Positions 2,660-63,775 of a stretch of DNA of 64,000 nucleotides are shown in pieces. Origin of the DNA: Dysidea avara (lineage: Eukaryota; Porifera; Demospongiae; Dictyoceratida; Dysideidae); NCBI RefSeq assembly GCF_963678975.1, contig NC_089272.1, positions 62,818,574 through 62,882,573 on the forward strand, in the 5' to 3' direction. Every line of letters starts with the position of its first letter. Position 1 is the first letter of the stretch. The translations under genes were made by a program, and so were the position numbers. Below the pieces are notes generated by a model, which saw only the letters and a list, made by a program, of their open reading frames with translations, had not been told where the DNA came from and made no database searches.

Positions 2660-3128
2660 TTTTGGCAATTGAATTTGTTACTTTGACAAATGAATTCCTC
2701 TTGTTGGTAATTGAATTTGTCACTTTGGCATTTGAATTCATCTGTAACAAGATTGGCAGCTGGAAAAACACAAAAACAAAATGTAGCAGCTGCTACAAGA
2801 CCTTGTTCAGGTACAACTGTAGTAAACAACTTCTCATAAGGTGATAATTCTTCCACTACAGCTTCTTCAGCAACATTTGCAACCATACTATGCCATTAGC
2901 AATGGGTGTGGTCACTCGAGAACAAGTTAATTAACTTGCCAGACAGCTATCAGCTTCGTGTACAATCAACTTCAATTACCTTCTAATGTCTCAAGTATAA
3001 CTCTCCATGGCGAAAATCATTCACTTTGTGATTGGTAGATGTTTTCTTGAAGACAATTTAATTATGACAAATTCATTTGCCAAAGGGACAAATTCATTTG
3101 CCAAAGTGACGAATTCAATTACCAAAAC
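2660..3128. mobile_element. foldback element, copy 1, with arms of ~24-bp repeats
   Basis: Left arm (2660-2745) and right arm (3060-3128) are made of repeats of the type AATTGAATTTGTCACTTTGG in opposite orientations. The core contains GTTAATTAACTTGC and a segment around TCTAATGTCTCAAGT. The same core and arms, in reverse orientation, occur at 52101-52711. Open frames across it, such as the minus-strand 77-codon frame at 2653-2886, translate the repeat arms and core and are not taken as genes. Confidence 0.7.
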
Positions 3129-4317: not shown

Positions 4318-6014
4318 AATACCGCCAAGTTGTTTCAATGGAAAAATGATTTTCCTATAAAGATGGCACTGAGATTTTTGTTTAACTAATACGAGGCCTT
4401 ACAGGGCAGCATTGTCACAATTCAACTTAACACACACATATTTCATGAGTGTTTTGGCACAGAATTCTTCTTGTTAACAATATGCTGTGACCAGCTGAGC
4501 AAATACCAACTGTTTTGTAATAAATAATAAATGCAAAGTGTAATACTTACTCCTGGTCATTGATGTGCTGGTCTAACAAATCCCTTAGTTTTTGTCTTTC
4601 TTCTTAGCTGGTAGTAGTCCTGGCTAATTCTATTTTTATCAGCGTACAGAAGTCACATTTAGTGAAGCGACAACTCTATAGTGAAAACACATGTAATTCA
4701 TAACTTTACATACACTATTACTGTACAAGGATAATCGTACACACATGTACACATACAAACTATATCTGAAACTCCTTTACCCTGGAGACCACATAATACT
4801 GTATATACTCAACTCGAATTCAGTAATGCTTAAACTATAATATCTACTTTACCACAGTTATTGCACAAACATATACTTGGGAGGCAGGAAAGGATGATGG
4901 GTAATGATGGGGAATGAAAGTGCAAGGTGACAACCAATCTCTAGTAGTACTGATTTAGGATGGGGACCATGTGGCATTTCATTCATGGATAGATTGTTAG
5001 TTGAGCTGGAGAAAGGGTAAACTGCAGAGCAGAATAAATTGGTTTACAATTATAGTTTACAATGCTGAAGAAACTTTTCTCCACTAGCTACAATGTAGGT
5101 ATTAATTGGCATAAACAAAACCACCTTTCATTTTCTTGGCAATTACAGAGATGCTACTAGTACTTGTTCTGTTAACATTATGTAATGGGTGGAACATATT
5201 CAGTCAGAGCACACAGTTCAGAAGCAAATCCATGTCCAGCATTCTTCTTTCATATGACACAGTATGTACAGGTTTACAAATCACACCCAACTATTATAGC
5301 TCCATGTATTTTTTTCCACAGCTCCTACTCAAGTTTAAAATTCCTAATTTCACTCCTGTTTGTTTAATTTTTGTGTATTTAATCTAAGACAATATCAATG
5401 AATCGATACAAAGTCAAACTGAATCGATATATCGTGTATCATGATATATCATGGTTTGTTAACATGGCTGACAATCAAATTATTGTATATTGTGGTTAAA
5501 CTGAACGGTATGCAATGCTTCTCAAAGAAAGATTAGCTCACTTATTTCCTTAAAAAATAAACATTAAAAAAACAACATGACCATTGTTTATTCTCCCATT
5601 TGTATTGTGCAATATATCGCTGTATTGTGCAAGATATAACTGTATTGTGATACACCAGGGGCAGTATATCGATACGTCTACACTGTTCGTTGCAACTCTA
5701 GTATCAACCATGCTCTTTGTTACAACAGCATGCAGGCCAGGTTGAACGCATGCTTTCGTGTCTGTGATAATCTATGTAGTTAATTTCGAAAATATACTAG
5801 CTAGTCTACCTTACACAGGAAAGAGGCCATTTAACTATGAAATCATCTATTACAAGACTACATACCCTCCTTCCCGTGGGCATATTATTAACTCTTACAA
5901 TAAATTCAGATATCCATTGAAACTTTGGAATCACTCTGGATGCAATCTCGGATTATAACCAGTATGGCTAAGCCATGATGAAAAACCAAGGATGTGGTTT
6001 TAGGGATGATATAT
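4318..6014. other. stretch without recognised genes
   Basis: Only short, compositionally biased open frames occur. The longest, at 5136-5387 plus, is Leu/Ser-rich, has no matching splice context and resembles no family I know. Several ATATATCG-type near-repeats lie at 5410-5680. Confidence 0.5.
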
Positions 6015-6959: not shown

Positions 6960-7961
6960 CTTAGGAATTGTAACATGCTTGAAGTTGGTATTAAACAATG
7001 TATTGAAGCATGATCGACCGATAGCTTTAGTCATGTCACCCTGATACACATCTTCCACGTAAATTTCAAATAATTTCTTTTCAGTAAGGCAGGTTGGCAG
7101 ATAAATAGCATCAGCCTTGTCAGGTCGTTTATCTCCCACACGCTGGAAATAATTTTCCATCCAAGCTATTGCTTCTAATGTTCTTGGTGCCAATGAACGC
7201 CTGGCCTTTACAATACTTGTAACTCCTCCAAATTATATGAATTGCTGACGGAGACGATAAAATCGAGATATAGATACTGATAAAACTTCTAACCACAATT
7301 TCATACATACTAGTTTACCCTGGATTGTGAAAGTGATATTCCTATCTCCGTTTTTGTCATATGGGCAATTCATCACAAGGAATTGTATGATGTAATCGCT
7401 TTGCTCTTGCCGATTTCTGCTGTCAAAAAAACTGTGTGCTCTTAGAATGTCATGATGAGTTAATCCATGAAGTTTGGTAGCACACATGGTTCCACAGCCA
7501 CTAAAATTCAATACTGATGACAACTGCCAATGTTGTGTGGCCGATTCATCAAGAGAGTTGAGCAAGCAATCATCATCATTAGATGTTGTCAAGTACGAAT
7601 GGGTTATCATAGCAGAAGCATTAGTGCAAGTCTTTTTGGGGGTGCTACTCATCAGCGGTGTAGATGATAACGCTGACAGCGAGTTCCTCGTTTCATTATC
7701 AATGGGATGACTGTTATCATGAATAGGAGTTTCCTCGGCCTCTTCATCACCGGAAGGCATTTCCGTTTCATCAGTAGCGGAAGGTAGTGATATTTCTTCA
7801 TCATCCGCTGCGGATGGTAGGGTCAACTCTGCCGTTGCCGAAGGTAAAGTTATATCTTCTTCTTCTGCTGCAGACAAAAGCGTTATATCATTTTCCTTCT
7901 CGAAGATCTTCTCAACACCATCACTGTATGTTTGCAATGCTTTTTCGGACATGTCTTCCAT
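6960..7961 (-). pseudogene. first coding exon of a transposon-associated gene, broken by one in-frame TAA
   Basis: On the minus strand a frame starts at ATG 7961 and would run to a strong donor (AAG|GTGAGT, exon end 6960). It is broken only by TAA at 7233-7235; the flanking frames 7236-7961 and 6960-7232 are in register (7961-7193 is a multiple of 3). Residues 1-95 are acidic, with four or five repeats of the type ITLPSA. Then follow a Ser/Thr-rich linker, a conserved-looking block (HDILRAHSFFDSRNRQEQSD, then FLVMNCPYDKNG), SISRFYRLRQQF, the stop, and LAPRTLEAIAWMENYFQRVG, DKRPDKADAIYLP and YQGDMTKAIGRS. From memory this resembles multi-copy invertebrate proteins with a later DDE/RNase H-like half (sometimes listed with DUF7869). 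That half is not visible here. It is a pseudogene, a null allele, or a sequencing error at one base. Confidence 0.6.
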
Positions 7962-9745: not shown

Positions 9746-9895
9746 CAAGATTTTTGGTATATGACTAGTGCATTAACAAGGAGCTGATAAAGTAATTGAG
9801 TTTTACAATGAGCAATTAGTCAGTGGACAACACTTTCCTACTACAGGGTGTGTCTACATATCGCATTTTTCAACACACTGTACAGACAAATTAAT

Positions 9896-10140
9896 GGGGC
9901 AATGGAAATGGAAAACAAAAATGGTCAAATTGTCATGTAAATGTACCCTAGAGTAAACCCTTGTTTAATGTCCACCTCTTAAAGACTACCTTCTTACAAC
10001 GATCACCTCCATGCAAAGACCACACATTTCAAAAATGGCTAAGGAATACGATATACTTAATGACCCTATAAATAAGACCACTTCATAGTCACCTTTTATA
10101 AAGACCACCCTCTTTACCAAACACCACCTATTCATGTTTT
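9896..10140. repeat. partial copy of the AAGACCACC-repeat TIR element
   Basis: It matches the left part of the element at 14263-14912: GGAAATGGAAAACA, AAATGGTCAAAT, AAACCCTTG, then repeated RAAGACCACCT motifs. No right end is seen. Confidence 0.55.
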
Positions 10141-20267: not shown

Positions 20268-20800
20268 ATGCCGAGACGATTGTGTTGGCATTTTTCCCTG
20301 AAAGATACTCAGCCAGCTGATGGAGTATACATAGGCGTTGGCAACCAAGTCTTGTCAAAATATGGGCTGATAAAGGATGTGGCGCTCAGTCCTCAGGACG
20401 GAGATGAATGGATAAAAGTAAGTGTTGATGCAACACTTGATAATCATTATGTTTAATATGTTCGATTTTAATTAGGCTACTTTTCAGACAAATTCTAAGG
20501 CTAAGGTCCTGAATGTTGCAGAATTTGAGTGGAACAAGAATGAGTTTTGCAGACAATTCAAAAACTGCGGCTTAACTGAATCGTTCGTGGATATATTTAA
20601 AGGAGCTACCATTGAGATGCAGCCAAATGGAGACGATAGCAACCAACAACCAACTGTAATTCAGCCATCAAACAAGAGACGGCGCATTGAAGCCATGATT
20701 CCAGCTAGTCATAGTGTTAGACGTGCACCACAAGATCAGGATGAAAATGATGAATTTAATGGTGCCAGGATGGATGAATCTATCAGGTCATATTTTAAAG
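20268..20800 (+). CDS. exons 1-2 of the methyltransferase-like gene (N-terminal part)
   Basis: Exon 1 (20268-20417, 50 codons, phase 0) starts at ATG with MPRRLCWHFSLKDTQPADG and ends at AAA|GTAAGT. Exon 2 (20476-20800) follows acceptor TTTTAATTAG, reads ATFQTNSKAKVLNVAEFEW and, after a Lys/Arg patch (SNKRRRIEA, a possible nuclear localisation signal), an acidic stretch (QDQDENDEFNGARMDESIRS), and ends AAAG|GTACTG in phase 1. Both are open throughout, so any decay is downstream. No domain is recognised in this part. Confidence 0.6.
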
Positions 20801-21948: not shown

Positions 21949-22860
21949 CAATGGGGACAGGTACAAGCTACTTTTTCAAGACACGGCATGGTGGCCGTGC
22001 ATTTCTTTACGCATACGCATTGGCGTAAACTCGAACAAGCTAGACTTGATGTGAATTGTTCCATGACGTAGCGACTTAGAACTGTATTAGTAATAGTATT
22101 ATATACTCTCAGCTAATTTGATAGAGATAGTACATGTATGCCACGGGGCTTGGTCATGATGTCACAGTGTGTATGCTGCATGTATACTTGTTCATATGGC
22201 TTAGTTCCAGTAAATCATTTAAGTTAAGCACTGTCTTTATTAACAAAAGATATTTTAAAAGTAATAGAATACTTTTTGTTACTGTCATGTTGTGCAATGT
22301 GTTGCTCTTATGTTTTAAAATTACTTATAAAATATATTATATGTTACATTTTAGCAATGAGTGTTAACTAATATGTACATAGCTAGGTTGTTTTGTACAG
22401 TGTACCTGCAGATGTACCAGTAGACATTTAAACCCTGATAAAGTTCCTGAATTTTCTTTCTACTGTTAATACTTTCAAATTCTAAAACAAATTCATGTTT
22501 AAAACATTGTGTGATTTGTTTTTCCTGTAATTTACTGCAAAATCTGGCATAATTCTAGATATTGTGCAATGTCAGATTACAGAGGTGACTTGTTAATCCA
22601 ACAACCTCCTTAATCCAGCAAAATTTATGGCTCCCATTGAGCATCGGATTAGAGAAGTTTGACTGTACAAGTTGTCTGGGCTGCGTGTACTTACCAAGCA
22701 GTATTTGAATGAATTCTCTACAGTATATTCACAGTCTACAATTTACGGTATATCCCATATGCTATAACACAGGTATTTTTACTGCTTAATTCTCACATAA
22801 CTACTGCATGCTAATTTTTGTGATTTTCACACATAATTTTTTGGTATTGCCTGTAGGTAG
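21949..22860. other. intron sequence without recognised features
   Basis: This lies between exons 2 and 3 of the methyltransferase-like gene. The frame at 22134-22367 is hydrophobic and unsupported. A TTGACTGTACA / AATCCAGCAAA segment near 22600 may be an old MITE fragment. Confidence 0.4.
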
Positions 22861-23757
22861 AACAACTAGACGAAAGAATGATTTTCTTTCTTGCTACTCT
22901 ACCAAATGAAACCTTTGTTATATTATCAAGCATTTTTAAGAAATACTTGAATGGAGAATTCCAGAATGTGCCCAGAAGTAAAAAAAGGTATAAAGTCTAG
23001 TCTTGATTTAAAAGGATCTACTTTCAAACCTTTTCGAGCATTAGACATTTCCACCATCCATGAGCTATTATTAAAAATAGAAGACGAGACAATGACAATA
23101 AAGGAAGCAATGATGCAGTGTGGTGACATAAAAAAGCTGCACAAGATACAGCAAGTATTCGTTAAAGGAATGGAATTGGATACGTGGGAGAAGGCTGTTG
23201 AGGTATATCCTCAATTTGCGACGGCCGAGAAGCTTGAACCATTTAAGCATCTACATTTTTCAAAGGCTGAACTACCTCCTCAGTTTCTCAACTATTGCCA
23301 ATATATTAAGACTCCTGGTAATGTTAGTGATATCAATACAGACAAGTTATTTTCATTTAACTACTTGGATTGCACCAGCATATTTTGGAAGAACAGCATT
23401 TCAAACATTACCGTTAATGCCATTGACACTATATTTACAACTACAACGGTTAGGTTCACAGGATTTACTCTAGCTGTACTGGATTATGCTCAATCAAATG
23501 ATACAGACACTGACCAGGTTTTTATCCAGCACATTATGTGTTGCATACTTTTGAATTATGTTTCTTTTAGATGCTGGATGAGATTAAAACTTCAATGAGG
23601 ATAGTGCGTGGAGTAAATTACAGCGTTGGGAAGCAACACTTTACAGTAATAGTACTTTGCTATCTCTCACAGCTTAGCACCTTTTAAGCTGCCCTAAATG
23701 ATGTTTATGGTGAAACTCAGATGGCTGTATGTTCACTACCTGTAGAAAAAAGAAGAG
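22861..23757 (+). pseudogene. exons 3-4 of the methyltransferase-like gene, with frame slip and stop
   Basis: Exon 3 (22861-23517) follows acceptor GCCTGTAGGTAG in the phase left by exon 2 and reads EQLDERMIFFLATLPNETF. At the 7-A run 22980-22986 the frame must shift (one A too many) to continue into GIKSSLDLKGSTFKPF, TMTIKEAMMQCGDIKKLHKI and DTWEKAVEVYPQFATAEKL. It ends CAG|GTTTTT. Exon 4 (23571-23757) follows TTTCTTTTAG, reads MLDEIKTSMRIVRGVNYSVG, hits TAA at 23685-23687, and is open again afterwards in the same frame (AALNDVYGETQMAVCSLPVE) to a GAG|GTATATG donor. The open frame beyond the stop argues for recent inactivation. Confidence 0.6.
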
Positions 23758-24580: not shown

Positions 24581-24816
24581 ATGTAACATCAGTAAATTCC
24601 CTTAATGAAGTAACAATTGGTATGCTAGTGGCAAAGAGTGGAGTACCCGCACCACTACCAATGGAACACGACAATTTTTTTTTGAAGACAAAGGACCAAT
24701 CTTACTATGATGCTTCAACTGGAAGATTGTGTTTCAGTACCAGAAGTCAGTTGAGACTCTATTACAATTGTACACAACACCTACTGACTGGACTTTGTTA
24801 TCGCCAACTGGAATTG
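24581..24816 (+). pseudogene. penultimate exon: motif X and first half of motif I of the methyltransferase
   Basis: Borders are GTTTTTGTAG| and a |GTATGT donor. The first half reads in one frame (EVTIGMLVAKSGVPAPLPME, then KTKDQSYYDASTG). The second half makes sense only in another frame (FQYQKSVETLLQLYTTP, then TDWTLLSPTGIG), so a small indel lies near 24720-24740. The second frame ends ATT G|GTATGT in phase 1, exactly the phase needed by exon 27068-27216 to complete GIG|S. Confidence 0.55.
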
Positions 24817-24893
24817 GTATGTAATAATAGACTGTTTGTGTGTAATAGCAAAACTGGTCACTTTTAAGAATTGTTCATAGTAACCGTATTTCC

Positions 24894-25091
24894 TTGTATG
24901 CCTACATCGATGATGAGGCATTTCTGACTGAGTATGCATTGAAAATTGTTATATCAATGCTGGATTGTTCTAACATTGACTTAAGCCAGCAAGCAAGTGA
25001 GCTAGAGGAGATTGTATTGTATGGTTTGTTAGTGGCTAGTTTCTTGTCCATGGATGGATTCAGTTCTCTTCTCATAAGCTTGAAAAGCTGA
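24894..25091 (+). other. unassigned open segment in the last intron
   Basis: A 65-codon frame reads AYIDDEAFLTEYALKIVISM, continues with an acidic and aliphatic composition, and ends at a stop. It is protein-like but does not fit between the two methyltransferase exons in phase. It may be an alternative 3' end, a different decayed exon, or chance. Confidence 0.25.
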
Positions 25092-25193
25092 GACTGGGCG
25101 TAAAGTCAGATTACTTGGAAATGAGGGGGGAAAGTTGAGCTCTTTGTGATCCGGCTACTAAGGTAAAAACAGACTCCATCTGATTTGTAAGCT

Positions 25194-26065
25194 CAGGCCC
25201 GTAGCCAGGGGGGGTTCGGGGGGTTCTGAAGAACCGCCCTCTTGGAAAAAAGGTCCACAATTTCAGTAAAAGGTCCACAATTTTAGCAAAAAGGTCCACA
25301 ATTTTAGTATACAAGTCCAAATTTTCAGGAGCAAAAGTCCATTAGCTACAGTTTACTAGATACCACTATAATAAGAAGCTAAAATAAGTGCTCCGAGTAA
25401 CTCATTCAGTGCTTGCATTAAATGCAATGCAAGATCGAGATACTCTAATAGAGCAGTCAACCACTCTAATAGAACAATCACTCTAATAGAACAGTCACAA
25501 TTACATTTTCTTTTAAAAGCTACTTAATTTACATGTAGATTGTCTAAACCGAGCTTTCATTAAAATATAAGATTTTGGTGGACAAGCCCCTCCATGCAGA
25601 GCCCACGAATAGCATCCATGCTTCAACTCCATGCAATATGTAAATTAAATTTTCATTGTTTAAGACACCATTTGTTCTGCTACACTGCCCCTGTTGATCA
25701 TGGCAGAGTGCTCAATCTTTCCCATTCTTATTCATTGTGACATTCCAATATATTATATTTAGACACATGTATGTGCAGATGGTATAATTACAGTAGCAGT
25801 AGAGATATTTTTCCAGATATCATTCATACAGCTGGTCTTCAGCTTACCTAAAAAAATTGTTAATTTTATTGACTGAAATGCCACTAAATTCAACCTTTTA
25901 GTATCTGTTTTCAAAAAATTTTCTGGGGGGGCATGCCCCCAGACCCCCCTAGATTGGGTGTGCTTCGCACACCCAGTCTCAGTACCTTTATTAATCATCA
26001 TGCAAGTAAAGGTCCACTTTTGGTCAAAAAGAACCCCCCTTTCAAAATTCCTGGCTACGGGCCTG
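25194..26065. mobile_element. 872-bp hAT-like element, copy A
   Basis: The TIRs are CAGGCCCGTAGCCAGG at both ends, inverted. The flanks GTAAGCT (25187-25193 and 26066-26072) give a 7-bp duplication. Copy B at 28301-29172 has the same length and, in every stretch I compared, the same bases. The interior has no transposase; it contains GGTCCACAATTT repeats and a TACTCTAATAGAGCAGTC block. The minus frame at 25759-26190 reads through it and is not a gene. Confidence 0.85.
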
Positions 26066-26389
26066 GTAAGCTTGTCTAGATTTGAGATAAATCTGCTGAC
26101 CTGTAAGGCCCATCCTTTCCATAAGTCTGGATCCGCCTCTGGGATATAACGTATACTTTGCATGATGTAATTGAATTCCAATGATATCAATTGTATGTAT
26201 TTACCACTAACAAATAAGAATACAGTATTTACTCTAAATAATGCACCATTGAAAAATTCACCATAATATCACTGGGACTTAGTAGATGAAATGATTTCTA
26301 TAGTGAAGTACCGCGTATTTAAATATTTGTTAGTGCTTTATGGTTTATCACAGTAACTTACGATACCAGAATTAATTCGTAACTTAGCT

Positions 26390-27030
26390 CTTGTGTTTCA
26401 ATATTATTTCTTGTTAATTTCAGTACCTTTTTTGTTACTAAAATTTAATACCTTCTTTCATGTAAAGTACTGAACCTTTTTTGTTCTGGAGGCTATGTAT
26501 ACATGTATAAAGAATTTCTGTAGCATTTCTTGTCTGATGGCTTTGTGTAAAATACTGAAATTCGGTACCTTTTTGTCTGTGAAATTTCAGCACCTCATTT
26601 ATATTTGTGGTTCCATGTAAAGTACTGAAATTTTGGTACCTTTTTGTCTTTGTGACTGTGTAAAGTATTGAAATTTCAGCACCTCCTTTATATTTGTGGT
26701 TCTATGTAAAGTACTGAAATTTCAGCACCTCATTTATATTTGTGGTTCCATGTAAAGTACTGAAATTTCAGCACCTCATTTATATTTGTGGTTCCATGTA
26801 AAGTACTGTACCTTTTTGTCTTTGTGTAAAGTACTGAAATTTTGGTACCTTTTGTCTTTGTGACTGTGTAAAGTACTGAAATTTCAGCACCTCCTTTATA
26901 TTTGTGGTTCCATGTAAAGTACTGAAATTTTGGTACCTTTTTGTCTTTGTGTAAAGTACTGAAATTTTGGTACCTTTTTGTCTTTGTGACTGTGTAAAGT
27001 ACTGAAATTTCAGCACCTCCTTTATATTAC
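26390..27030 (+). repeat. minisatellite in the last intron of the methyltransferase-like gene
   Basis: About a dozen repeats combine GTAAAGTACTGAAATTTCAG, CACCTCCTTTATATTTGTGG and TTTTGGTACCTTTTTGTC in varied order. The minus frame at 26780-27016 is a translation of it. Confidence 0.85.
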
Positions 27031-27067
27031 TATACTGTATGAATATTTGATCTTTTTGTATACCCAG

Positions 27068-27216
27068 GTTCCATGGTGATTGCTGCCTTGAAACAAGGGA
27101 GAAATATTCTGTACATCAAAAACAATAGCATAAACTACATCCATGCTAAAATCTGTGCAGTAAAATTGATGTCTCTTGGTTCTTTAGAAAAGGATAGTCA
27201 TGGAAGTGACGACTGA
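27068..27216 (+). CDS. last exon: methyltransferase motif I completion and C-terminus
   Basis: Acceptor TATACCCAG precedes GTTCC, which completes a Gly codon from the previous exon. The frame reads SMVIAALKQGRNILYI, then NYIHAKICAVKLMSLGSLEK and a stop at 27214-27216. The pattern GS(M/T)xIAAL..GR..(I/L)xI followed by Y..AK..(L) is the AdoMet-binding end of N6_N4_Mtase-type enzymes. The acidic residue usually after the second strand (GIE/YIE) is K here (YIK), another sign of decay or divergence. Confidence 0.6.
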
Positions 27217-28300
27217 ACTGTAATGTTGAACTGCCGACATAATTTTTTTTGTGTTGTTCTATTATATCGTTTCAAATTATGCAGCAATATTGACTATGTA
27301 ATTATTAAAATTTATCACATGCAAAATCAAGTAATTCTCCATCACAACTGGTCTGAAATAAATGCTTCGAAATGGTCCACAATTTATAATGGTTGCAAAA
27401 TAAAGCAAATTTGCTCAAAATTTTCAGACAATAAAATGCATTTTGGATTTTCCCAGTGCATTTTGGATCCTGTTTATTACTATGAAACTTAGCAGCCAAA
27501 GATTACATATAGTTTGGCATGCTGCTTTCAAGAACATGAATGTATATAGTATTTTTTATTGTCTCATTATTAGTGAACGAAAAGTTAGCATAGAATGTCA
27601 ACTATGATATGACAATATGTTTGGCACAATGGTAATACATAGCTGTGTTGAAATGGCAAAGATGTTCCATACTGGTCTTTGTCATTTTTATCACTATACA
27701 GTATGTAGCAGAGCTTAAACGAGTCCTTGGTTGTTGAGTGTACAAACAGTATTTCAAGAAGAATGGCTGAATCGCTGAGGAGAACCTCTCCTAGATCTTT
27801 CCTGTACTAAAGGGGAACTGCAGTCATTTAAAAAAAAAAAAATTTATTTTAGTAATTGATCATGAATGTATATGAAAAGTTATGTATGTATACCATTTTT
27901 TATAGCTGTACTACATTTCACTGTGGAGATACAGCGATGGAAAGTTGCGCATGCCTGCCGCCATGTTAATTTGCGGTTAGACGTCACTGGATCTAAGTGT
28001 GGATGTTGCAGAGGAGGGTGGACATGCGCACGTGAGCGCATACATTTGTATTGAAAGTATAACCAAGCCCTCGGCGAAGTTTAAATAAGCACCATTCGAA
28101 AGTGTGCTTCACGTTTAGTTTATTTAGCCGGTCTGCCCCACTCTTCCCCGCTATTCTCGGCACGTAAATTGCTCTTGGGTTTATAGAGGACCACGTGTGC
28201 AGTAAGTTTGTCGGTAGAATCGATGCGTTGCATTCTAGAGACACCTTATAAGCTTTTATTCGAGCCTAACAATCGTTGAAGAAGGTATTATGATATACAA
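27217..28300. other. stretch without recognised genes
   Basis: Beyond the stop of the methyltransferase-like gene I see no supported exon. CACGTG occurs at about 28029 and 28192. A GC-richer patch at 27950-28200 could hold a promoter, but no transcript is identifiable. Confidence 0.4.
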
Positions 28301-49586: not shown

Positions 49587-52500
49587 CTGTAAGGTGTATA
49601 CCACTGCATTATGTCAGATACTAAGTGAATAGCTATTTATGATGTGAAAAGTAGTGGTCTAGTGAACATTAATCAAATGATAGCTAAAAGTAGTGAAACA
49701 ATAGACATGGTCATAGCATGTGGAAAATATCCCTCTGATTTGTAGTAGTAATTGTGGTGTACAATTGAATCTGTTAATTGTTTCACCACTTTTTAGTGCA
49801 GACACTTATATCTTTGTAAACATTCTCACAACTGCTGGCTATGGGTGCACGTATGGCACACCATTTATAACAAAATATATTCTGCTAAATTGGGCCCAAT
49901 TTAAGCAAATCCAGCTCAATTTAAGACTATCCCGCTCTAGTCAAGAGCTGCAATTAATGTCCTTTGTGCTTATCTAGGGCCTAATTTAAGTGCCTTTTCT
50001 TGTTTAGTTTCACCCTCTTTTAACTACAGTTGTAGGAAAATGGGAACAACCAATTCAAAATTCCTGAAGAAGGTGATTATATCAATATACAGGCTAAATT
50101 TTATAACACAATGTTTCTTTGCAGCGTTGTTGAATCCTTCCATTAAAAATGATTGAAACAGTCAAATAGAACTGTTACTTGTGTTAAAATACTTTAATAG
50201 AGAATGCATCCCTGTCCCATCAAGGACCTGCATTGAAAGCGCTTGTGGTACACTTGAGCATTGTTCCGAATTATTATTTTGATGAGATACCCTAATAAAG
50301 CAGTCAGGCAATATAAACTACTCTAATACAACAGTCACTTAGCTGCAGTGGAAATCCCTTTCAAAAAATTCTTGTGTATGCCCCATGATTATCCGAACAC
50401 TTGTTTGACAATTCAATCCCAAATGTGTTCTGATAAGTGCATTTGTTGGATAAGTGAATCCCATACAAAGCTCTGTTCAACTACTCTAATAGAACATACA
50501 ATTCTTTACACATACAGTACCAAAATACTCTAATAGAACAGCCATTTGTACTATTTAGATATCGTATTTGATCAGTTGATAACTGTGGCTCGTATAACAG
50601 CCACCCCAGATAGTAGCCACTCCACAGTCTAGAATTATTTAATAAGAGCCTCAGAAAAGAGCCATGGGCCTGTATTTGAACATTCTGTTGCAAGTGTTGA
50701 TAAGACACATTTGAGGCAAGGGAGTTGTTTTAAGGCAGGAAATAGCATTTTTGAGAGAAGTTAGAATGAATGACAGTAATGACAGATGATTAAACAAGGT
50801 CAGTCACTCATGAATCCATATAAACACTGCGGGCTGCTGCCACACAAGCCCATAGTAGCTGCCCTCTGATAGTAGCCACCTTCGCATAGTAGCCGCAGAG
50901 TTTTACTTTGTGAAAGTTATATAGCAGCTGTGGCTATTAATCAGTCAAATATGGTAATCGAAATCTAAGCAATTAAGAACCTACTGTAAAACTATATTGA
51001 CCTGCTGCTTGCAAATCGATATCTTAGCACTAGAGGTAATACAAAAGAAAGAACAAAGTGTAAGTTCATACATAGTGCATGGTACATTCTGTGGTGTGTC
51101 AAAAAACTAAATATCAGGTCAAAACATGTACAATGTGTAACCATGAGAAATTATAGCCCATAGTGTTAGTTACTCTTGCCTGAAGGCAACAGTTACTAAG
51201 TTGACAAGTTAGCTGTAAAATAAAATTCTAAGGATATGGTAAGCAAGCATTCCTTGAACTCAACAAAACCACAAAGCAATACGCAGACCTTCCAATTCAC
51301 CCGCATTGTGTGAGTGACACCCACCATTTAAGGCTTTTCACCCGCTCACCCGCATAAATGTATTCATCACCCGCATAAAAATAATTTCCAGCCAGAAATC
51401 GCTAATGCTTTCACTTACACAATCAGGATCTGAATTGGCATCACGTGAAACACAATTAATATGATTGTGGGTTTAAATTAAATCACGTGAGAGGATTTTA
51501 AAATAGTATGCTGATGGTGGGAGTTTATTGGCGATGATATTCAACCATTTCATTGGATCAACGTTAGTTCACAGATGATTATTCTACTATTCTGAGTTGA
51601 TATAATGATATTATAACGTATGAGCACTAAATTTGGCAGGCATTGATTAAGAAAGTACAGTTATGAGTCTTAATAGAGTCTCCAGAGTGCATTGCATAAA
51701 AGGAATACTACCTGTAGAGGAGTTAAAAGACGATTCAGTGTGTAAAGCATAAAAGGACTACTACCTGTTGAGTTAAAAGACGATTCAGACTTTTACATCA
51801 CGTGATATGGAACGGGATTGTCACGGAGGATAGCAGATGGGTAAAATGATTGTAGCTCAGTCATGCAGTAGTAAATAAGCTGTAGATAACAGCAGTGTAT
51901 AGGTTTAGCTAGGGGCAATGCACTTTGACAACCAATTTGTGTATGAATACTTGTTTTCAGCACTCATGAATGTGGGCTCTGCATACACTTGGCTATAGTT
52001 ACAGGTAACTGAGGGTTAATTCACCCGCACAAAATATTTCCAAGGTTGGAAAGTCTGAATACGATCCCATTAATTACTTTGGAAGGTGACAACAGGTTTT
52101 TGTAATTGAATTCGTCGCCTTTGCGATTGAATTCGTCCCGTTTGCAATTGAATTCATCGGTTTTGCAGTTGAATTAGTCGGTTTTGCAATAGAATTCGTC
52201 GTGTTTGCATTACAATTTGTCATTAACAAAACGGCTCCATGAAACCAACCCGTTCATTAAGAGATGAACTATTTATGCCTTGGAGAGTTACACTTGAGAC
52301 ACTAGAAGATAATTGAAGCTGGTAGTACGCGAAGTTGATAGCTGTCTGACAAGTTAATTAACTTGCTTGCGAGTGACCACACCCATCATGAATGGCGTAG
52401 TAGAGTTTGGAATGCTGCTGGATAGGCTGTAGAGGAAGAATTATTGCCTTATAAAGAGTTGTTTACTACTGCTGTACTTGAACAAGTTCTTGTAGCAGCT

Positions 52501-55500
52501 GCTACACCATGTTTTTGTGTTTGCTCCAGCTGCCATACGAATTTAACTGCAAAAGCAACGAATTCAATTGCAAAACCGACAAATTCAATCGCAAACAGGA
52601 CGAATCCAATTGCAAAACCGACGAATTCAATTGCAAACGGGACAAATTCAATTGCAAAAGCGGCAAACTCAATTGCAAAGTCGCTAAATTCAATTGCAAA
52701 AACCTGTAATATACACACGCCTTCACTGAAATCACTATAACCTGACACCTCTGTAATTCAGAATATGTCTATACAGTAGAGCCTCAATTATCCGAATCCC
52801 AATTATCCGAACAGTATAACCGACTGCTCTATTAAAGTATTTCGTCATTAGGTGAATGTTCTATTAGAGTAGTTGACTGGAATTCTGTATATAAATGAAC
52901 AGGGCTGAGCGATTGTGAGATTTTGCTACTTTCACAATTGTAGGATGCAACATATGTATCACCATTGTGATAACGAACACGATGCTATAACTCACATGCA
53001 TCAGCAATGTGTATGTACAACTTTGTATGAATTATTTCATATACCATGAAATTGTGTACAACTATTCAACACAATTAAGGCCATAGGCAGCTACAGTTTA
53101 ATACAAAATAAACAATGGTATCCTTAGAAATTCATCAGTTTATACAGGTAAGGTTTAAATGATGTAGTAAGATTTGATGTCCATCAGGCTGTTTGCTAGA
53201 TCGTGTACTTCCTTCCACAACAGTATGTGTCACCATTATTTTTTAATTTACCAATATACATTTGTATATGATGTCACAACATCACGATTATTTATAATAC
53301 ATATCAACATCACGATGTTCAGAGACAATCACAATTAATCCCACAATCAATATAATCTCCCAGCCCTAGAAATGAATTTATCTGAACAAATTCACTAATC
53401 TGAACACTTTAATTGATGAATGAACTGGCACACAGGTGTTCAGATAATGGAGGTCCTGCTGTAATATGACATTGTTCTTTGTACTTTTCTATGTAATACT
53501 ACGTACCTCTACAATGTGACCACCCAATTTCTTGTGTCAAATTATAGAGGTTTTCAGTACATACTACTACCATGTGTGCATCTACTTATGTGTACATTGA
53601 ATTTAATACATTGTGAGACCGTACATGGTACTTGATGTGTATACCATAATAATATCAGTTTTGTTTATACTGGTAGGAGTTAAATATTGGTTTAGTAAAA
53701 CCAAGTGGAAACATTAACTAAGGAAACATTAAAGTTGTGACTATACAATAAAAAGCTTCAGCTTTATCATATTCTTATTCTCACCTAACAGTATATCCTG
53801 TTCACTATACTCAACAGTACTACATTGAACAGCTTCATCTGTAGATGTAGTTGTCACTGATACTGAATTAGAAGTCTGCACTGGAACTATAGAAATAACA
53901 AGAAAAGGACTAGTGAATAATGTAGCCAGCTAAAAGTATCATATACCGTATAACGGGAATGATTCACGGAAGAAAACATTCGCGAATTTCGCGATTTTAG
54001 GTGCATTCACGAATGTTTTCTTGTTAATTTTTTTCTACAATTAAAAGTTTTTTTCATGGATCAGCATTCATGTAACAAGTGCATAAGCGGGTAGCTACTC
54101 ACCTTGCTACTCGCTAAACTGTTATATATGCGTAACGGTATAGCCAGAGACCGTGGCATGTGATTCGAACAGAGATGCAAACTTCAGTGACAGTGGAAAA
54201 ATATCAGTGCTACTAAATGGGGAAAGTATAATTGCACCCCAGCGATTCACTGTGCTGGAAATGTCGTGTCTTAGCCTCGGTTTTAGTGCCGCCCCAAGGC
54301 TATAGGCGTGCCTATCGTCCGCACTCATTATTGTGAATTATTATTATTGTTACTGAGCAGACAGCACAGTTGATATGCTCAGGTAAAAAGCAATCATAAA
54401 ATGAATTTAGCTACGAAGTTACAAAGATTACAGTTATTGAGTTCCATACAATGAATGTCTACTTCTCCAGCGAAACAGCAATCATGCATGGCTACTAGTA
54501 CATGTATGTGTAGTACGCAACATGTCAGAGTCAGCCATATAGTCAAGTGTTCCCTAGCTATCCATAGGAAAAAAAGATTAATTCTTTGTGGGCGCGTGCC
54601 CAATTATTAATTACTTTATGCAATAAATCGCGAACGTTTTCTCACGAATGAGGAAATAGTAGATCATTCACGAATGTTTTCTTCCGCGAATCATTCCCGT
54701 TATACGGTATCCAAGGTAGTCACTATGCACTTGTATATAATCCAGCTTGCTTGTAAATATGTGTGGTTATACACTGATGACTAGTTTTGTGAATACTAAT
54801 TTTTATTTTTTATTACTGTTACCTCATCACTGTTATTTCAGTAAATAACAGTGCCAGTAAATAACTAAACAGACTATGTATAAAAATGATTAGATTTTTG
54901 AAAAGGGGTCTTCCACACACATCCGATTCTATGAACTTAGAAGACCATAACTTACTGTTCAGCTAACATATAAACTTCAAATTTTCTCCATCCATTAAGC
55001 TACGTTGGTACTCACTGCTGACCAAATTTCAAGTCAATAAATACCTTGTTCTGCTCTTAAATTACCAAATGACAAAGTTGATAAATTGAATGTGTGTGGA
55101 AGACCCCTTTTTGCAAATCCGGTCACAGTATTATATAGAAAGACATTTTGGTGAATGTGGTTCTTCATGCCTCAATACAATATGTAGTTGAAAGGATAGT
55201 GCTATTTATGCAGATTTTTATTTGTGACAAAATTGTTAGTTTCCAAATTCTGGCCAGAAATGTCTAGCTACAGTATGGCTATCACCTTAGGCAATTCTGT
55301 AGACTTTTGTTTACTTTTAGTTCTAGAATCAAATCATAACATGTTGCTTATTGATAGAAAGAAGACAATGAAATGTAATGAGCTTATCAGCATTACCGTA
55401 TTTAGTTTTAAAAAATAACATGTTCTCATTACCATTATTGCCAACATTGGATGTGTTGTCTTTACTTCTGCCATCACCATTGATCTTTGTTGGTAATACT

Positions 55501-62189: not shown

Positions 62190-63775
62190 CCATGGTAGTT
62201 TCTTTGTAACTGAACACTCTACAAGGTGACTTCTTCTAATTGCTCTCTCTACAGGGTGATTTGTTTGTAGCTGAACTATCTACATGGTGGTTTCTTTGTA
62301 GCTGAACTCTCTACAAGGTAATTTCTTCTAGCTGATCTCTCTAAAGGGAGATTTGTTTGTAGCTGAACTATCTACAAGGTAACTTCTTATAGCTGATCTC
62401 TCTACAGGGTGATTTGTTCGTAGTTGAATTCTGTACAGGTGATTTGTTTGCAGCTGAGCTCTTTACAAAATGGTTTCTTTGTAGCTGAACTTTCTCCAAG
62501 GTAACTTCTTCTAACTGATCTTTCTACAGGGTGATTTGTTTGTAGCTGAACTATCTACAAGGTAATTTCTTCTAGCTGATCTCTCTACAGGGTGATTTGT
62601 TTGTAGCTGAATTCTGCACAAGTGATTTGTTTGCAACTGAGCTCTTTACAGAATGGTTTCTTTGTAGCTGAACTCTCTACAGGGTGATTTGTTTGTAGCT
62701 GAAATCCCTACAAGGTAACTTCTTCTAGCTGATCTCTCTACAGGGTGATTTGTTTGTAGCTGAACTCTCTACAAGGCGATACTTCTAGGTGATCTCTCTA
62801 CAGGATTCCTTGTTTCTAACTGAACTCTCAACAGGGTGATCTGTTCATAGCTGAACTTTCTACTGGGTGATTTGTTTGCAGCTGAACTCTCTAAATGGTG
62901 GTTTCTTTGTAGCTGAACTCTCTACAACGTGACTTCTTCTAGCTGAACTCTCTACAAGGTGACTTGTTTCTAGCTGATCTCTCTACAGGCCGATTTGTTT
63001 GTAGCTGAACTCTCTACATGTTGGTTTCTTTGTAGCTGAACTCTCTACAAGGTGATTTCTTCTATAGCTGATCTTTCTACAGGGTGATTTGTTTGTAGTT
63101 GAACTCTCTACATGATAGATTCTTTGTAGCTAAACTCTCTACAAGGTGATTTCTTCTATAGCTGATCTTTCTACAGGGTGATTTGTTTGTACCTGAACTA
63201 TCTACATGATGGTTTCTTTGTAGCTGAACTCTCTACAAGGTAGCTTCTTCTAGCTGATCTCTCTACAGGACAATTTGTTTGTACCTGAACTCTCACATGA
63301 TTGTTTCTTTGAAGCTGAACTCTCTACAAGGTGATTTCTTCTAGTTGATCTTTCTACAGGGTGATTTGTTTGTAGCAGAACTCTCTACAAGGAAACTTCT
63401 TCTAGCTGATCTCTCTACAGGAAGATTTGTTTGTAGCTGAACTCTCTATACATGATTTGTTTGTGGCTGAATTCTGTACATGATGGTTTCTTTGTAGCTG
63501 AACTCTCTACAAGGTAACTTCTTCTAGCTGATGTATCTACAGGGTCACTAGTTTGTAGCTGAATTCTCTACATGGTGGTTTCTTTGTAACTGAACTATCT
63601 ACAAGGTGACATCTTCTAGCTGATCTTTCAACAGGGTGATTTGTTTGTAACTGAACTCTCTACAAGAAAACTTCTTCTAACTGATGTCTGAACAGGGTGA
63701 ATTGTTTGTAGCTGAACTCTCTACAGGGTGATTTGTTTGTAGCTGATCTCTATACAGGTTACTTATTTCTAACCG
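62190..63775 (+). repeat. long minisatellite of ~60-bp double units
   Basis: About 25 units alternate CTCTCTACAAGGTGATTTCT then TCTAGCTGAT, and CTCTCTACAGGGTGATTTGT then TTGTAGCTGAA, with many small variants. No ORF is maintained. A TGACTGCTCTATTAGAGTAT block follows at 63800-63832. Confidence 0.9.

Follow-up and report, generated by a model that had tools for sequence, protein, structure and literature searches.

A methylase-like gene tail in the sponge Dysidea avara, the probable 3' end of a decayed DNA transposon

The window analysed here, a 64,000-nucleotide stretch of the Dysidea avara genome, probably carries a giant DNA transposon in decayed form, with the gene tail described from it at the 3' end; in such an element a DUF7869 transposase would be accompanied by a catalytically dead ParB-methylase accessory protein. 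In fuller copies two genes lie head to head, a DUF7869 gene and a multi-exon gene that runs from an N-terminal region through a ParB/Srx-fold domain and a helical domain to a C-terminal permuted amino-methyltransferase-like domain. That the family is mobile is supported by near-identical copies of two lineages, A and D, on several chromosomes, in which a shared 3' motif is followed by unrelated DNA. The preliminary description of this stretch, which proposed a permuted amino-methyltransferase-like domain in an animal gene and suggested that the family might be transposon-borne, is partly supported. The second suggestion agrees with the dispersed A and D copies and their differing flanks, and the ParB-fold domain is a part beyond that first reading, its exon being missing from the window copy.

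The window copy and its relatives

Two coding exons split by a phase-1 intron had been described, and both exons and intron stand, with borders 24581-24816 and 27068-27216 for the exons; the correction needed is that the first of them, exon e, is broken in frame. On the + strand, YQKSVETLLQLYTTPTDWTLLSPTGIG is encoded at 24738-24816, its last codon being cut by the intron, and (G)SMVIAALKQGRNILYIKNNSINYIHAKICAVKL follows within the last exon. The first half of exon e (VTSVNSLNEVTIGMLV...) is read in a different frame from YQKSVETLL, and the exons that precede it in the window add one stop and one further frame break. The copy has neither the ParB exon, nor the DUF7869 core, nor an intact reading frame. 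It is, other than expected, a pseudogene, and what had been described is the last part of a gene in decay. The peptide of the window itself has no match in Pfam, and its only PHROG match is to a methyltransferase, at E 0.084, so that the case for a methylase rests on intact paralogues.

Such paralogues were found by searching the 550.8-Mb assembly, and the loci were sorted into four lineages, A (which includes the window), B, C and D, and a set of more distant lineages. With the last exon as query, 24 rows came up at E up to 10, some of them weak or second pieces; four are relatives with 90-96% identity, located on C2, on C4 and at two places on C1 (E 8.5e-24 to 2.6e-20). Counting the window itself, the large upstream exon matches 30 times at E up to 0.5; four of these matches, likewise on C2, on C4 and at two places on C1, are 97-98% identical, and 25 others, some being second pieces, 24-47%. 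Close relatives of the last exon and of the large upstream exon make it clear that the observation is more than chance. The order c, d, e, f is consecutive in A, D and the distant lineage L021, the other lineages being represented by partial reads. Nucleotide identity is mostly 97-99.9% within A and D (lower in the last intron of A, which is rich in repeats: 92-96%), about 97-98% within B, about 89-98% within C and 74-99% within the distant lineages.

Within lineage A, the window, C4 and C1:31.15M copies form a subgroup with a common loss of the ParB exon and common damage in exon e; the C4 and C1:31.15M copies are 99.7% identical, and the window is 98.4% identical to each. At the site where the C1:50.7M copy has about 3.8 kb of extra DNA with the ParB exon in it, all three have none. 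The C2 and C1:50.7M copies form the other subgroup (99.3-99.5% identical). Because the sister copies bear the same losses as the window copy, the data suggest that copies of this kind were multiplied in trans. Six of the close pairs compared over exon c give a dN/dS value, and these range from 0.05 to 0.28; the figures are based on few changes and include three pairs among the same three loci. A further pair (L005/L002) has three non-synonymous and no synonymous changes, and pairs between lineages are saturated. By this measure exon c is under purifying selection in the six pairs.

Repeats of several kinds also occur in the window. A near-identical repeat is present in two copies, at 25197-26066 and from 28302 onward; the former lies in the last intron and is missing there in the other four A copies, which marks it as a nested insertion specific to the window. 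A large tandem array of 31- and 61-bp units occupies 62199-63758, and a similar stretch adjoins an A copy on C1 near 31.17 Mb. Related 21-bp tandem repeats lie in opposite orientations at paired places, 2661-3126 and 52099-52701.

Table 1. Features of the decayed copy in the window
Feature	Position	Strand	Basis or remark
DUF7869-type gene remnant, exon 2, with stop	4553..4669	-	tblastn with D-family exon: 59%/39 aa, E 6e-12
DUF7869-type gene remnant, exon 1, frame interrupted	6960..7523	-	tblastn with D-family exon: 54%, E 5e-69
Approximate start of similarity to C4 copy	9886..9900	.	
First coding exon found (MPR...)	20268..20453	+	43% identity/37 aa to D-family exon, E 4e-6; end approximate
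Second coding exon	20476..20800	+	30% identity to D-family exon, E 8e-13; end judged from GT
Insertion site of extra DNA in C2 and C1:50.7M copies	22127..22130	+	Extra DNA holds ParB exon
Exon c: helical domain, then strand at motif IV position	22857..23517	+	Window frame broken near 5' end
Exon d	23571..23757	+	In-frame stop in window
Exon e: motif X region and start of motif I	24581..24816	+	Frame broken in window
Phase-1 intron	24817..27067	+	GT..AG; cuts one codon
Array of 12-bp perfect palindrome CTGAAATTTCAG, last intron	26579..27013	.	4 exact, 6 within one mismatch
Last exon f: remainder of motif I region, C-terminus, stop	27068..27216	+	
3' terminal motif GATCCTGTT	27466..27474	+	Flanks of five A copies differ beyond

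Methylase-like and ParB-like domains

The intact paralogues bear out the permuted C-terminus of the preliminary description, with motif X followed by motif I. Exons e and f of the C2 copy match a methyltransferase profile, PHROG_18293, at E 2.7e-8, and a nine-row family profile aligns locally, over 70 columns, with six phage methylases (hhalign, E 2.8e-9). Weaker alignments of the same exons with CcrM (E 0.05), MboIIA and DpnA, none of them significant, give the same order, and the family profile reaches E 0.025 against DpnA over profile positions 240-379. PHROG methyltransferases are also matched by lineage C (exon e, E 3e-4) and lineage D (E 2e-4), and by L021 at E 0.015 only. With E values of up to 10 allowed, the C2 exons find 305 phage records, the best at 6e-6; among the best 20 of these, 18 are annotated as methylases and the other two are unannotated. 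The reversed C-terminal sequence gave no match at all. Intact paralogues thus match methyltransferase profiles and retain a GxG motif: both KPV and GIG are conserved in lineages A, C and D. The likeness is to beta-class amino-methylases of phages and bacteria (PF01555; phages GBK2 and RHph_Y52; CcrM, MboIIA and DpnA), which have the same order of QKPVALFE, GxG and IAALKxGRN at the C-terminus.

The assignment to PF01555 fared less well: the C2 exons match it at E 1.2e-5, but their 25.9 bits lie below the curated cut-off of 26.7, the window peptide has no match, and a PF01555 search of the whole genome gave none at E 0.001. Exons c and d match no significant family in Pfam, PHROG or NCBIfam (best NCBIfam methylase row, E 0.045). 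A PDB sequence search with the D protein found nothing, and a structural model of exons c and d, partial in that other exons encode the rest of the methylase domain, matched no known fold.

Could such a protein methylate DNA? Catalysis by amino-methylases requires residues of motif IV and the acid of motif I. At the aligned motif IV position, [DNS]PP[YFW] is absent from all eight lineages compared (L016, unalignable there, was left out), and there is neither PP nor a suitably placed aromatic residue. The position reads LDYAQ in A, LDFTG in D, FDLEG in B and LDLCG in C, and IPIKPV, TSIPKV, SYVPKV and TSIDKV in the distant lineages L021, L025, L017 and L019. The DPPY/W-type motif that had been anticipated is thus not borne out by the alignment, and A, C and D lack the acid of motif I. 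With no [DNS]PP[YFW] motif left, the protein probably does not methylate, as judged from its residues. In the lack of a DPPY/DLPY-type motif it differs from the beta-class enzymes, as it does in being encoded by a longer gene that has introns and also specifies a ParB-fold domain.

The ParB-like exon lies upstream of the methylase-like exons in the fuller copies. Its fold is that of the ParB/Srx superfamily, shared with the ParB N-terminal domain and sulfiredoxin, here without a Pfam ParB match: a genome search with PF02195 (ParB_N) gave none at E 0.001, and nine pieces of the exon found no ParB family in Pfam even among weak rows. The ParB profile drew one unrelated row from the PDB (E 0.62), and a plasmid search with the exon one row, a hypothetical protein (E 9). 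We note that the Gordonia phage Evaa (1-2237) has adjacent genes annotated as a ParB-like nuclease and as a methyltransferase with a ParB-N-terminal-like domain.

The partner gene, the 3' end and the palindromes

In the D lineage a DUF7869 gene lies upstream of the ParB-methylase-like gene on the opposite strand; a single D-family exon matches DUF7869 (PF25273) at E 3e-19, with 69.8 bits against a cut-off of 26. The same first exon of this gene is found, in divergent orientation, in another lineage (L026, E 5e-21). The genome holds 152 DUF7869 matches. When 150 of them were used, 20 of the 33 ParB loci had a match within 45 kb, where we estimate about 0.8 from DUF7869 density alone, and in all 20 it lay upstream and on the opposite strand; the other 13 had no match within that distance. 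DUF7869 proteins presumably resemble DDE transposases, and we read DUF7869 as a transposase domain on the basis of this likeness and of its many copies. In the window the open stretch at the exon 1 remnant continues to 7979, and tblastn found no homologue of the DUF7869 part itself. A 119-aa open stretch on the - strand at 543-902, the main part of which has no Pfam match, may belong to the DUF7869-type gene as an additional exon, or to another gene.

Copies within lineage A, B or D cease to be similar just 3' of the ParB-methylase-like gene, at a common motif, GATYNTGTT, which is present in five A copies, four D copies and four B last-exon loci, the flanks differing beyond it. Its variants are GATCCTGTT or GATCTTGTT in A, GATCTTGTT in D and GATTGTGTT in B. 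Upstream, two D copies (C7 and C1) have 34,966 bp in common, at 99.8-99.96% identity, with similarity still running at the limit of the sequences, and no left end, terminal inverted repeats or target-site duplications were found. In the window, the point where similarity to the C4 copy begins is not the end of the element, because similarity to the C2 copy extends to at least 8081. The decayed element would measure about 23 kb in the window, provided that the DUF7869 remnants belong to it. An origin as a Helitron, Crypton or retroposon, considered because the copies agree at the 3' end but vary in their 5' limits, was set aside after the divergent DUF7869 gene was found.

The palindrome CTGAAATTTCAG has no occurrence in the window outside the array of the last intron, base composition predicting 0.007 exact ones. 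It precedes the last exon at every one of the 15 last-exon loci read from A, B, D and the D-like L051 and L052, and is absent from ten of ten other loci checked, only some of which cover the last intron. Genome-wide there are 63 close pairs, against none for the backward pattern. Among 11 clusters listed (C1 and part of C2), six are at family loci and five elsewhere, so that the arrays are not exclusive to the ParB-methylase family. In L084 (C1:44.61M) and L085 (C1:31.53M) an array lies beside other DNA. L084 is 23 kb from a B-type last exon (L041), and its array might be a left arm; two array pieces outside family loci, examined as possible left ends, had no terminal motif.

What kind of element, and to what end?

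How might the two genes work together? The DUF7869 protein would be the transposase that moves the element, and the second protein an accessory factor that binds the element's own DNA through its ParB part, the methylase domain perhaps serving in recognition. Such binding may aid transposition or shield the element from silencing. A bolder prediction, which we advance only tentatively and think rather unlikely, is that the transposon has made a catalytically dead DNA-recognition protein out of a prokaryotic ParB-methylase, and that this protein binds the CTGAAATTTCAG arrays near the 3' end as a parS-like centre for transposition or protection within a eukaryotic chromosome.

One might think instead that the accessory protein is an active 4mC or 6mA methylase that marks the transposon's own DNA. 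Its two domains and opposite-strand placement are those described for the Ectocarpus element Sola1-1_Ec32 (PMC12477816), and KPV and GIG are kept; the state of motif IV in the eight aligned lineages, given the residues named above as needed, and the loss of the motif I acid in A, C and D make an active enzyme improbable. The intron-rich gene and the purifying selection on exon c would also suit a family of host genes that came from prokaryotes and was multiplied by segmental duplication, or that rides in transposons by chance. Segmental duplication or chance carriage is harder to reconcile with near-identical copies whose flanks are unrelated past a fixed 3' motif in three lineages, with a head-to-head DUF7869 gene in every pair found, and with the multiplication of broken copies as well, and we give such a family little credence. 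It is very improbable indeed that the methylase resemblance is fortuitous and that a ParB-fold gene merely ends in an unrelated domain: the weak scores of the window peptide, the PF01555 score below cut-off and the limit of the match to 70 columns speak for chance, and separate PHROG matches from A, C and D, the phage matches with their methylase annotations, and the silence of the reversed sequence speak against it. The probable reading remains a decayed DNA transposon with a dead accessory protein.

Genes of this kind are already reported from algal transposons (PMC12477816). Sola1-1_Ec32, a giant DNA transposon, has a gene with ParB-like and N4C/N6A-methylase domains on the strand opposite the transposase, and the algal proteins were suggested to mark the transposon's own DNA. 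The sponge loci resemble it in combining both domains in a single gene and, at those ParB loci with a divergent DUF7869 match, in having this gene on the strand opposite the other gene of a putative DNA transposon; they differ in that the partner is DUF7869 and the methylase has no motif IV. The N4CMT of bdelloid rotifers (PMC8885841) is likewise permuted, of PF01555 type, of bacterial origin and intron-containing in a eukaryote. Unlike the gene in the present candidate transposon, it is reported as an allelic pair of host genes, with a chromodomain and 4mC activity shown in E. coli. In the open-licence PMC literature we found no report of a ParB-methylase gene in an animal, and within the literature searched we would call new the pairing with DUF7869, the lack of the catalytic motif and the array of palindromes.

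A gene that joins a ParB domain to a methylase-like domain, seen in that literature only in algal transposons, thus occurs here beside a different partner and without the catalytic motif. The proposal that a transposon methylates its own DNA becomes testable against the alternative that the protein only binds DNA, and PF01555-like matches in such genomes need not mean the writing of 4mC or 6mA.
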